Source: Takashimella koratensis
Lineage: Eukaryota > Basidiomycota > Tremellomycetes > Trichosporonales > Tetragoniomycetaceae
NCBI GenBank assembly: GCA_003116875.1
Contig: BCKT01000007.1
Coordinates: forward strand, 546,365 to 610,364
DNA: 64,000 nucleotides
Direction of reading: 5' to 3'
The first letter of the stretch is position 1. Each line of letters opens with the position of its first letter. The notes under the pieces were generated by a model, which was not told the DNA's origin, ran no database searches, and saw only the letters and a program-made list of their open reading frames with translations. Both the position numbers and the translations under genes were made by a program. Shown here piece after piece: positions 38,849 through 43,996 of this stretch.

Positions 38849-40385
38849 TGGAAAGCGCGCGACAGCGGTCGATCGAGACAACAGGAGATGTGGAGGAGGC
38901 AACAATCTGAAATTATCGGTTCAGGCAAAGAGCACGTGTTTGAGCGGAAGATTGATTTTCCGAGGTTTTTCCGGGCTGTCTTCCAGGATTATGATAAGCT
39001 TGCGAGAGCCTCAGAAGTCGGAACTTGGCCTCAGAAAGCTCGCTGCAATGAATGGTCTTTCTGAGACAATGAACAGCATGGGTAGCGTAGCGGTCTACCA
39101 AGACGTGGCGTTCGGAAAGAAATCACTCCCTATTTTATGTAGTGATTGCAAGGTCTCTAAAGCTTCTTAATCGCAACAGGAAATGGGAGGGGCAGCAAGA
39201 CAGGAACAAACTCGCACGGCGCTACCTAGATTAGGCCGTAGTCAGCTCTCGTGGAGGTGGCTCTCGTCCGCTCCGGTTGGGTATACTGGGCATGTGAGGT
39301 GAGGTGTTGGCAATCGCTCTACAAATAGTAGCGAGCGCGTTCTCCGTCCTCGACTCGTAAATTGAGAGGGTGTGCTTGAAAAGCTCCAACCACCTTCTAT
39401 ATCAAACTATATAATGTAGCGCTGGCTCAAGTTGGAATGTTCGCCTGTCCTGTTAGTAGGTGGCATCAGTTCCGCACACATCGTTTAGAAGAGCTTTGTG
39501 CAACCATGTAGACAGACTCACGAACTAACAATCGGTCTACAATCTGTCAAGGGCGGCTAATTGATTGTGCGAAAAGTGACTAACAACATGACAATTTGAA
39601 CATTGTGAGTTTTCTGGCTTCATTACACTGGGTGCCGTTACAGCCAGTAGAACTCGGCTGTGTTTTTCAAAGCACAAAAAGTAATCTTTTCCAAACCAGT
39701 TATGGTGGTGTTAAGAAATCGAGGTAACGCCATAAACTCAATGCGTTCATGAGGGCAAAGAACAGTGACCCATTATCTTCTCAATCTGGTACCATATATC
39801 GATGCGATGTGTACGGTGAAAACAACAAAGAGAAAGAGACAGACCAAAACAGAGAGGTCACTTTGCTTCGAAGCTGTGCACTGGTGACAGCATTGCTCAA
39901 TTTCTCTCTTGGCGTTTTTGCTTTCTCCACTTGAGAGATGAACAGAAAATGATTGACTTCAAGTGCTTGTTCCGTCTGCGGTGGTGATGTAATTCCACAA
40001 TTTGAGACGACGACTGCTGCAGTAGTGCTCTGCCACATTGCAAATCACGTCTTATTAGCCACCGGGCAATTTATTTATATAGCCTCTGCGTCGTCTGAAC
40101 TTTTTTATTCTTTGATGCATTGCCTTCCACATTGGCAGAAAGTACGCTCAAAATCTGGTGTGCGTAAGAAGTAAGAGTTACAAATCAAGTTATATCTCAA
40201 GCAAGAGTGTATTATGGTAACTGTGCTCTGAGAAATGTTTAGTTGCAAAGCCTTGAAAGCATGCCTCGTTCAGCATGTGGTTGCCATCGCAACTTTGATC
40301 TCTTGTTGTCCTTTTTCCGTTGACGTATAGCTCTCTGCATTAATAAACATATCGAATTGGTAGCTGTTCAACTGAACGTTTCCAG

Positions 40386-40518
40386 TGTCGGATATCGATA
40401 CGTCGTGCATGGTGGAGAAAGAGGAAAGGGGGGGAAAGACGAGTTGGGTCGTCTCCAAGCTGGGCATCAAAGGAGGTCTGTGCGGTGGCTATGCACGTCA
40501 CGTGCACATCATCCGACA
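40386..40518. mobile_element. Short TG...CA element, copy 1 (solo-LTR- or MITE-like)
   Basis: 133 bp, starting TGTCGGAT and ending ATCCGACA, a perfect 8-bp inverted terminal match. It is flanked by the direct duplication TCCAG (40381-40385 and 40519-40523). TG...CA ends with a 5-bp duplication are the classic marks of an LTR; the small size also fits a MITE. It shares a central block (GAGTTGGGTCGTCTCCAAGC) with copy 2. No protein-coding part. Confidence 0.8.
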
Positions 40519-41035
40519 TCCAGCCGAGCCTGAATCAATGTCCAAAGTGCTGGTGAACTTTTTTCGCTTTGCATTGGAAGTCCAACAAACAACATGAACT
40601 GATGAGATAGATTTAAAAGAAGTTTGATGATCAGATTTTGGAAGCTACAAACTGTGTCAGCAAAGGTGATTTGGCAATGATGTATCAGAGCACTACTCCA
40701 AGCACTACTCCGGTTTAAACACCCATTTGTCTATTTATTCCTGTCGATCTTTGTCCCTGGCATTTCTTTTTCCCGTTGTTCGTATTTTCCCAACGACACC
40801 TTTTCTCATTCGAATCAATCAACCTTCAGCGCGGATTGATGAGAGGCAGGCTGACGTGCGACATTACATTACGTGTAAATACACATACGAAAGTTACTGA
40901 ACATCTTTTCGGTTGCAGGCAATATCTTGCGTGTAGGGTCGTGCATGTCAGAGAGCAATACTTATTTTACCGGGACTTTATTTGCACTGGGGGCTTCGAA
41001 AGGGGCCACTACTTGCGGCGTAAATGGTTCGTCAT

Positions 41036-41172
41036 TGTCGGATATCGATACGCCGTGCATGGTAGAGAAACAGGAAAGAAAGAGAGAGAAAAGATGAGTT
41101 GGGTCGTCTCCAAGCTGGGCACCAGAGAAAGTCCGTGCGTTGGCTGTGCAGTCACATGCACATCATCCGACA
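41036..41172. mobile_element. Short TG...CA element, copy 2 (solo-LTR- or MITE-like)
   Basis: 137 bp, same orientation as copy 1, with the same TGTCGGAT / ATCCGACA ends and highly similar interior. It has a different 5-bp flanking duplication, GTCAT (41031-41035 and 41173-41177). Different duplications at the two copies show two independent insertions rather than one duplicated segment. Confidence 0.8.
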
Positions 41173-41275
41173 GTCATTAATACATGGGAGAGGGCACTAT
41201 TAGTGGTGGGTGGATACAGGCCCCAAGCGGAACATCAAATTGAATCGTGAAAAATCTTCCATTCATTGAAGTACA

Positions 41276-41316
41276 TCTTCTTCTTCTTCTTCTTCTTCTT
41301 CTTCTTCTTCTTCTTT
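41276..41316. repeat. (CTT)n microsatellite
   Basis: About 13 near-perfect CTT repeats in the gap downstream of PLC1. Confidence 0.95.
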
Positions 41317-41469
41317 TTGTATACATGTGCCAGTCTGACAAGTGAAGGGTGAAACTGGATGATGTGAACAATGCTGGTTTACTAAACACGGGTTTTATGG
41401 GTGATCTGGCGGTGATGAGGTGTGTAGGTGATAGAATGTTTGAGATACAAATGATGCAACAAGAAATGT

Positions 41470-43996
41470 TCAGCCGCTAGATATACTCAACGAGAAGTCA
41501 ACAAGCAGCATTGCAAAAAGGAATCGGGACAACGACTGGTCCCAGAGATTGAGATAACGTAGTCCTTTTACATTATTCAGCTACTGAATGAAAGTTTGAT
41601 GACTCACCTTGTTGAAATGATTTCAATGTCTTCACCGATTGCCCAACAAAAGACTTGCCTCGAACCTCAAAGACAATGAATGTCGTGTCAAGATCAGAAC
41701 TCGAGCATTCCAATGTAAACTCCATGGACTGGGACCAAATTGGATTGCTGGTCTTGCGCTGTACAACGCGGGTTTTTTGGACCTCGCTGTTCAGTAACAC
41801 TTGAACTTGCAAATTCTCGTTTGGAGGAAAGCGATGTCCCGAAACGATCTATATATTATGAGCATTGCGAATGATCATATTTCCCGGTGGGTACTCACTG
41901 AAACTTGAATTTTGTATTGTCTGGTAGGTTCGACTATCTTCCGTCGTAGACCCTCGGGTTTCAACACGTAACCGCATGTCTCGAACAAGGCCTTGTTCAA
42001 GTACATGGCTTTGTCTGTATCGTTAACATTACTGTTTGTTGTCGGCGTAGACTCACCGAAGGTCTGCCAATTTAGAGCGACCATTTGGCACCCTGCTTTC
42101 CAATATGGAGTCGGATCAAAATTTGAGCTGGCCATCCGAGTATTTTTTGGATAAACTCTGGAAAGGTGATTGAAATTGTGCTTCACCCAGTCTGCGCTGT
42201 TTTCTCGTAAGATTCGATTGGCGGTCCGTTCGGAGACAGAGAACTGCTCATTTGGGGAGTATGAGGCCAGTTTTGTGAATCCGTGATATTTGACGCCCAG
42301 GGAATACACTAGCAGGTCACGCATTTTGTTTGAGAACGGTGCGGCATCAGGTGCCGCGGATAGACTCAGTCTACGTGCCAATCGGGCAAAACTGGAATCT
42401 GATTCGGTGGAATCATTGGAATCAAAGCTCGGGTTGCCGCTACCTTGCGAAGGCCTTGGTGTAGACTGAGGCGGTTTTGCCTAGGATTGAATGGGTAAGC
42501 CTATCTATCTGTTGCAGTCTGAAACGACATACTTTGATCAAAATTCGATTTTTCAACTCTGCAGGACTAGGAAGCATGTGCTTGGAAGTGATGGGCGCCT
42601 TGATCAATGATTCGCCGAACACGTCGACAAGGACATCTGCCAGGATACCTTGTTGGTCGATCGAACATCGAAGCTCCATCGAAAGGATAACGGGGAAAGG
42701 TGACGAGACGAATGCGTAGCGTTTTATCGCTTCACAGACATCCCTTATCGGTACGTGTGTGGTTAACGTTTTGCCGTGATAAACGACGGGTTCTTGATCA
42801 CCGTTGTGACAGTCGACTGCGTGATGGAACTTTAGCTTCAAACTGAGGAGGGATGGAAGAAAACAGACAGCGCTTCGCACTGACTTTCTACGCATCGACA
42901 TCCCGCTAGCAGCACCCGGATGTACCCTTCCACGGTGCTTTCGCCACGCCATTGCTCGCCAACCAGATATGTGTTGTGTGAGCTGGAGATGAAGTAATCA
43001 CTCAGCGGGTGCTCCATGTCCATGTCGGGTATCGGCGACGTAGACTCGGCTGAAGCCAGATATGACCCAAGTGACTGGACGGTCCATATGCCGTTCTCTG
43101 AGAAACGAGCGAACACGTCGGGATACTTGTCTTCCTGCTCTCAATCGAAACATTGGGAATCAGTAAGCAGTCATTCCATAAGGGGGTGCTAGTAGTGACA
43201 AGAACTCCACTTTTTGATGATGTTGTAGGAATTGATGAACGACCGACGTGGTGCCCAATTGCTTCCCGCTTGTACAATGCTTCGCGTAAAGACATTGCAG
43301 ATCTGGGCGAGCCTGTAGTTGATGTACGAGCTCGCGAAAGGCAGTGAGGTCAAGAGACGGCTTCATTCGACATGAGCTCATGCACAGAGTAACTCCCTTC
43401 CTCGAACCCAAAAATCTGCTCACCTTTTCGTCTTCCACCTCAGATTGCTCGAGACTCAGTCCCAGCTCGTTGCAGAGTTGTCGAGCAGTTGTCCAGCTGA
43501 TGCTTTTGGCCCCGGCTGGCCAAATTTGCCTGATGAACTGGAGGTCCGGATCGGCTACTGGAATCTGTGGCACCACTCGATCCACGTTGGCTGATATCAG
43601 GCTTTGAAGTGAATTCGCCCATAGCAAGAAGACGTCCTGGGTCAAGGCGATCAAATGGACAACTTTCCACTGTGTAGCTCGGGTATAGACAATGGTGATC
43701 CAGCGTTCACCGTTGGAAGCGTTTGTCGGAGGCTGGCCGAGTCGAATCTCTCGTATCTGACGGATATCAACTGGTGATAGGAGACGTTAGTCAAACTGAA
43801 TTCTGCAACTTGCAATGAAAACGAAAGACGCACCGCGGCCGCTGTTGGTGCTAGCCCAGGTGATCGCAGACTCGCTTAGTCGCACGATGACCTGCTTGAT
43901 TTTCTTGGACGAGACCTTGAGCATTGGTACTCCCGCGGCCAGCTCATGGGGGACATCTTCGGGGTCGGCCATAGCGTTGAGATTGCTTCGCGTCAT
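41470..43996 (-). CDS. PLC1: Phosphoinositide-specific phospholipase C
   Basis: Nine exons: 43834-43996, 43424-43770, 43211-43360, 42885-43134, 42533-42816, 42057-42480, 41899-42014, 41608-41848, 41470-41564 (689 aa). An N-terminal PH-like region leads to the X domain ([40 protein letters not shown]), with both catalytic histidines (about H273, H317). After a Ser-rich linker comes the Y domain ([27 protein letters not shown]), then C2 ([19 protein letters not shown]). It cleaves PIP2 to IP3 and diacylglycerol. The last exon is set by frame: it continues [20 protein letters not shown], as C2 domains of PLC end. A second in-frame ATG is at 43972. Confidence 0.94.

Follow-up and report, generated by a model that had tools for sequence, protein, structure and literature searches.

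Short solo-LTR-like repeats in gene-poor GC troughs, possible compact centromeres, of Takashimella koratensis

Introduction

Delta and sigma are solo LTRs of the fungal LTR retrotransposons Ty1 and Ty3. The short repeat described here, W, resembles fungal solo LTRs (delta and sigma, and those of the Copia types A and B of the present genome) in its TG...CA ends, 5-bp target duplications and solitary copies, and also in its short terminal inverted repeat. At 125–144 bp, W is shorter than the LTRs of the Copia (208 bp; 311–324 bp) and Gypsy (at least 500 bp, with direct repeats of 500–600 bp) elements of this genome, and it differs from Copia A and B in that a full-length parent was not found in the assembly.

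Fungal centromeres are a second point of comparison for the sites of W, which are gene-poor GC troughs. In Kwoniella, centromeres are compact and ORF-free, the genome contains few transposable elements (TEs), and most LTRs lie in predicted centromeres; LTR remnants are present in only a subset of centromeres in two species, and the centromeres of K. dendrophila are devoid of LTRs (PMC11185503). In Malassezia, each chromosome has one intergenic GC trough, the kinetochore-bound regions are ~3–5 kb long and a short motif recurs in them (PMC7025860). Native centromeres of Cryptococcus deuterogattii span truncated transposable elements (PMC8407549). In Salmacisia, the prediction of centromeres, 32–181 kb long, drew on a low GC content, a low density of genes and the presence of LTRs (PMC10849329).

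The sites of W differ from these systems in several respects. Kwoniella centromeres have a median length of 6.7 kb (PMC11185503), compared with at most ~3.6–4.7 kb here. The Malassezia trough is ~1 kb long with a 12-bp AT-rich motif (PMC7025860), whereas the troughs here are at least 2 kb and the sequences that recur in them are LTR-like insertions. Centromeres were determined by CENP-A ChIP in three Kwoniella species (PMC11185503) and described from chromatin data in C. deuterogattii (PMC8407549), whereas those proposed here are candidates from sequence alone.

Results

The assembly searched comprises 25.1 Mb on 24 contigs. The window, by which we mean the whole stretch of 64,000 nucleotides analysed (G000:C7:546365-610364), contains two copies of W.

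40381..40385, + strand: left 5-bp target duplication of W copy 1 (TCCAG)
40386..40518, + strand: W copy 1, 133 bp, TGTCGGAT...ATCCGACA
40519..40523, + strand: right 5-bp target duplication of W copy 1 (TCCAG)
41031..41035, + strand: left 5-bp target duplication of W copy 2 (GTCAT)
41036..41172, + strand: W copy 2, 137 bp
41173..41177, + strand: right 5-bp target duplication of W copy 2 (GTCAT)

The two copies are ~85% identical and 517 bp apart. Both start with TGTCGGAT and end with ATCCGACA, which together make an 8-bp perfect terminal inverted repeat. The first-pass annotation had described two copies of 133–137 bp in equal orientation with common ends, each within an exact 5-bp duplication of its own, and had taken them for two independent insertions; our data confirmed this description. 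Each copy has its own duplication, and the outer flanks lack the match expected of a single LTR-internal-LTR element, which supports two independent insertions; it is near certain that the W copies are insertions. To the right of W copy 2, 13 CTT units follow in a run by our count by eye (41277-41315).

A BLAST search of the 25.1-Mb genome found nine W copies at seven sites on seven contigs. The absence of further genomic copies, which the first-pass annotation had named as refuting its view, was thus not borne out. The eight other copies are 78–88% identical to copy 1 over the aligned part, and the family is therefore probably old. Searches with two other W copies as queries (8 and 7 matches) revealed no additional place. 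Profiles of W and of the two companion repeats described below, X and Y, were run on the window together with 19 loci, 207 kb in all with overlapping loci excluded; the W profile revealed a tenth copy, truncated, on C6, as well as two matches of marginal strength. A genome search for exact occurrences of TGTCGGATN{100,130}ATCCGACA gave three places, namely W copies 1 and 2 and the copy on C13, and the backwards control gave 0.

The length of W is 125–144 bp in the five copies with clean ends on both sides. When homology was used to fix the ends, exact 5-bp duplications (TCCAG, GTCAT, TTAAT, AGGAC) were seen around four of the nine copies; random 5-mer pairs match exactly in 0.12% of cases. The duplications are worn at C4 (3/5), C8a (2/5), C11 (1/5) and, by eye, C8b (4/5), and C5 was excluded from the count, as it reaches 5/5 only after a hand shift of its degenerate ends. 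TG...CA ends are present in copies 1 and 2 and on C13, C6 and C4 (by eye also in C8b), and 5' ends are worn in C8a, C5 and C11. Beyond 8 bp the inverted repeat of W is weak at best: the subterminal inverted match in six copies was equalled by 15, 29, 174, 193, 759 and 933 of 1000 single-base shuffles, the value of 193 being that of C8b computed with a misplaced end. A 27-bp pattern of the 5' end (up to three mismatches) and a 22-bp pattern of the 3' end were each found at five places, all of them known short copies. Therefore, no longer element with closely similar W ends was found genome-wide by these patterns, which would overlook an element sharing only the last 8 bp.

A literature text search with the W 8-mer listed matches that are unrelated by title. 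In Rfam, positions 39000-42500 of the window gave a single match (E 0.13), far below the gathering score. Folding of either strand of the two W copies gave z-scores of -0.8, -1.6, -2.0 and -3.5, which is expected with inverted ends, and a structured RNA was rejected, as two-sided change occurred in only 1 of 17 consensus pairs. With ARAGORN (bacterial code, which may miss intron-bearing tRNAs), neither the window nor nine loci yielded a tRNA gene, a weak test on which targeting of W to tRNA genes was set aside.

The assembly has four integrase (rve) matches (C1:2803k, C1:807k, C1:2528k and C1:2651k), all within LTR elements, three Copia and one Gypsy, on the largest contig; thus no Ginger-type transposase was seen. 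The LTRs of the three Copia copies have TG...CA ends and 5-bp duplications (TGTAA, CTACG, AAAAT), and this combination is therefore an LTR retroelement signature in this genome. By eye, a reverse transcriptase on C24 is Gypsy-like and one on C7 is telomerase-like. Two reverse transcriptases on C19 (C19:166954 and C19:211179), in frames of 3060 and 2890 amino acids, lie 44 kb apart; the former has an RNase H match and an endonuclease family just below the cut-off and is LINE-like. None of the nine BLAST matches of W lies at a Copia, Gypsy or reverse transcriptase place. No gag-pol element with W ends was found in the assembly by BLAST, by integrase, reverse transcriptase and Copia searches or by end patterns, and no autonomous transposon with such ends was found by end patterns or at the MULE loci, three transposase/integrase families having been searched. 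The Gypsy element L028 was considered as the parent of W, because ATCCGACA occurs in it twice, 6.2 kb apart, and looked like LTR starts; it was rejected, as one occurrence lies inside a long pol-type frame, the downstream sequences are unrelated and the element has its own repeats of 500–600 bp. The start of the Copia-A LTR (TGTCAGGTATCGAAC) resembles W, but comparison of the whole LTR was no better than shuffles.

Comparison of the seven sites revealed two further repeats common to the flanks of W. X is ~150 bp long (TGTYRAATAACAGG...TCCGACA) with five clear copies at four sites and one marginal match, and Y is ~135 bp long (TGTCGGAGTAGTGCTCTG...TCAACA or TCGACA) with 24 matches (E up to 0.05) over all seven W sites. 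By eye, exact 5-bp duplications flank two of the five X copies (GAAAT, GTCCC). Among the 15 of 24 Y matches inspected by eye, one duplication is exact (CTGTT) and one is 4/5; the rest fail or lack ends. The window contains two copies of Y.

40021..40120, + strand: Y copy, model positions 15-114, with worn 5' end (nhmmer E 6e-19)
40639..40711, - strand: partial Y copy, model positions 1-82 (nhmmer E 1.4e-11), also seen as an inverted repeat

Left of the former, a marginal W-like match at 39794-39881 (E 0.0025) is possibly a third, worn W copy. W, X and Y had no profile match in the window outside 39.79–41.17 kb and none in the 13 other loci of the profile search. W and X have in common a pyrimidine tract followed by CATGCA, at the same place and in the same orientation (score 56, null 95% 35, 0/200 block shuffles), in a comparison with the tract, which is of low complexity, oriented towards the 3' end. 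Similarity between W and Y and between X and Y was not significant (equalled in 13/200 and 102/200 shuffles). In nine representatives, three of each repeat, ATGCA lies 19–25 nt from the 3' end as cut.

The order and orientation of W, X and Y vary between sites, and therefore the W sites did not arise by copying of a single larger element. When the repeats were masked, comparison between sites left only a weak 43-bp match adjoining Copia-B LTR fragments. Two of the seven W sites contain fragments of this LTR (L030:3001-3064 and L033:4828-4886, 78% and 88% identical). On C6, two inverted X copies form an imperfect palindrome of 374 bp (L031:4299-4672) with a self-match of ~70%, and the two Y copies adjoining it are also mutually opposite. 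At C4:1916k, a tandem duplication with 365-bp spacing contains a Y copy (L033:3090-3823); its identity of 99.7% indicates a recent duplication within an otherwise old repeat site.

All seven W sites, on seven contigs, are GC troughs, and W and Y are common to all of them and X to four. The first-pass annotation, which had placed the window's copies in its emptiest part, had not foreseen that the sites of W are a few gene-poor GC troughs common to other repeats. The lowest 2-kb GC is 0.416–0.433 at all seven sites (0.421–0.435 with repeats masked), compared with minima of 0.468–0.519 in seven other stretches, and the W, X and Y insertions are not GC-poorer than their surroundings.

39651..41650, no strand: lowest-GC 2-kb stretch of the window (0.433; lowest outside 38–43 kb, 0.481), candidate centromere core

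By a rough codon-usage score, coding signal is missing over 3.6–4.7 kb at all seven W sites, and the longest such gap elsewhere in the window is at most 1.56 kb; these GC and coding figures cover the seven W sites of the 12 places listed below. The score is insensitive, as it missed the phospholipase C exon at 41875-42381, and the gap in the window is therefore at most ~3.7 kb. Longest gaps in four control loci were 3.78 kb (L027, mostly inside Copia), 2.73, 2.07 and 1.98 kb, those of 2.73 and 2.07 kb sitting at locus edges. Stop-free frames of up to 273 codons enter the gaps at six sites; at the seventh, C11, a stop-free frame of 1173 codons touches the gap edge. The genes of the window, phospholipase C, VID27 and a ribosomal S21 protein, are cut into short frames, an arrangement indicative of a fungus.

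The whole genome was searched with the 18-base end of Y, allowing up to three mismatches, and this gave 55 matches against 24 in the backwards control. Twelve places on 11 contigs account for all 15 matches with no or one mismatch and for 37 of the 55 in total. The W sites make up seven of these places, and it was in their flanks that Y had initially been noticed.

With W: C4:1916k, C5:1116k, C6:30k, C7:586k (the window), C8:1364k, C11:606k, C13:772k
Without W, Y only: C1:1781k, C3:534k, C4:645k, C10:1163k, C16:619k

Ten clusters of at least two matches lie on ten different contigs; the two matches in the window have three mismatches each. The remaining 18 matches are scattered, fewer than in the control, and form no cluster outside the 12 places. 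The sites are mostly one per contig where present. Random placement gave P 0.028 for ten clusters on ten contigs and P 0.048 for 12 places on at least 11 contigs, values that are suggestive only because 16 of the 24 contig sizes in the simulation were interpolated. C4 has two sites, at 645 kb and 1916 kb, and three sites lie 31–47 kb from contig ends. The Y-end search had no match on C9 or C14, only scattered three-mismatch matches on C12, C15 and C17, and on C2 a single two-mismatch match at 1612 kb without a partner, plus scattered ones.

Discussion

Gene-poor AT-rich patches that occur mostly once per contig are centromere candidates, and in the window ~38.2–41.8 kb, with the GC minimum at 39.65–41.65 kb, would be the candidate centromere of contig C7. 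We give an even chance to the reading that a lost retroelement lineage left W, X and Y behind as solo-LTR-like relics, and that these lie in compact candidate centromeres resembling those of Malassezia and Kwoniella; taken separately, the proposition that the W sites are centromeres is likewise about evenly balanced. Under this reading, an integrase of the LTR-retroelement type would have inserted full elements, recombination between LTRs would have left single LTRs, and these may have accumulated because the sites are compact centromeres, either targeted by the element or tolerant of insertions that were little purged.

GC-poor repeat nests need not be centromeres, and it is nearly as likely that the sites are ordinary gene-poor TE graveyards, a few intergenic gaps filled by families with a preference for heterochromatin or for places near elements like themselves, and with no centromere role. 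The two sites on C4, the several large contigs on which none was found, the three sites near contig ends, the marginal one-per-contig statistics and the worn Copia-B LTR fragments at two sites are all consistent with graveyards. However, the seven W sites are alike in size, GC level and low coding signal, the masked comparison showed them to have only W, X and Y and a fragment of the Copia-B LTR in common, and the Y-end search produced no cluster outside the 12 places. A stronger form of the centromere reading, in which each chromosome has a centromere of 2–4 kb whose recurrent sequences are dead LTRs (W, X and Y) of one lost lineage that still contribute, is rather improbable; the contribution could be, for example, driving of centromeric transcription or provision of landing sites that fixed centromere position.

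The kind of element is a separate question. The first-pass annotation proposed a solo LTR of a retroelement with short LTRs, or else a MITE. The former is the better of the two and was probably the right guess, although it is unproven, because no gag-pol copy with W ends was found in the assembly. W has TG...CA ends and target duplications within the 4–6 bp of solo LTRs (exact 5 bp in 4/9), and no full-length relative with two repeats around gag-pol was found in the assembly search. A family can survive as solo LTRs only, and we therefore call W solo-LTR-like. Possible promoter features inside the repeats are a pyrimidine tract with ATGCA after it, close to the 3' end, and a TATA-like stretch in several Y copies. 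Should W be an LTR, the minus strand would probably be the sense strand of copy 1.

Alternatively, W, X and Y would be MITEs, short non-autonomous DNA transposons, with TGTCGGA-type ends; a single DDE transposase, itself absent, would have mobilised them and generated the 5-bp duplications. This alternative concerns only the kind of element and is compatible with either view of the sites. The perfect 8-bp terminal inverted repeat of W, the three families with alike ends and largely different interiors and the lack of a gag-pol parent for W in our searches agree with it. MITEs have terminal inverted repeats of ~10 bp or more, and that of W is shorter than this and extends little past 8 bp. Duplications of 5 bp are unusual in fungal DNA transposons, and the pyrimidine tract with CATGCA, equally placed in W and X, looks like a promoter with its start region. 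Three MULE loci, with ~1.5 kb on each side, contained no exact TGTCGGAT or ATCCGACA, and no KDZ match was obtained, a weak point since the controls of the KDZ search were silent too. Our data thus favour an LTR-type element over a MITE with reasonable confidence, and we regard MITEs as unlikely. A single TRIM-type element (two short LTRs around an internal piece) formed by the two W copies and the 517-bp spacer would explain their equal orientation, TG...CA ends and short spacing, but is already refuted by the outer flanks (TCCAG vs GTCAT) and the separate duplication of each copy, and in the other close W pair, on C8, the copies are separated by ~2 kb in which X and Y copies lie.

W is a family of probably old relics and belongs to a known kind, and its value lies in its location, at sites worth centromere testing. 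If only the part of the reading that concerns the element is true, W is an ordinary relic family. If the whole is true, a repeat of ~135 bp would provide a sequence handle on a set of candidates for compact centromeres in a fungal genome that lacks annotation. The case would also be intermediate between Malassezia, with its GC-trough centromeres, and Cryptococcus, with LTR-rich ones, and would bear on the link between LTR loss and centromere shrinkage.
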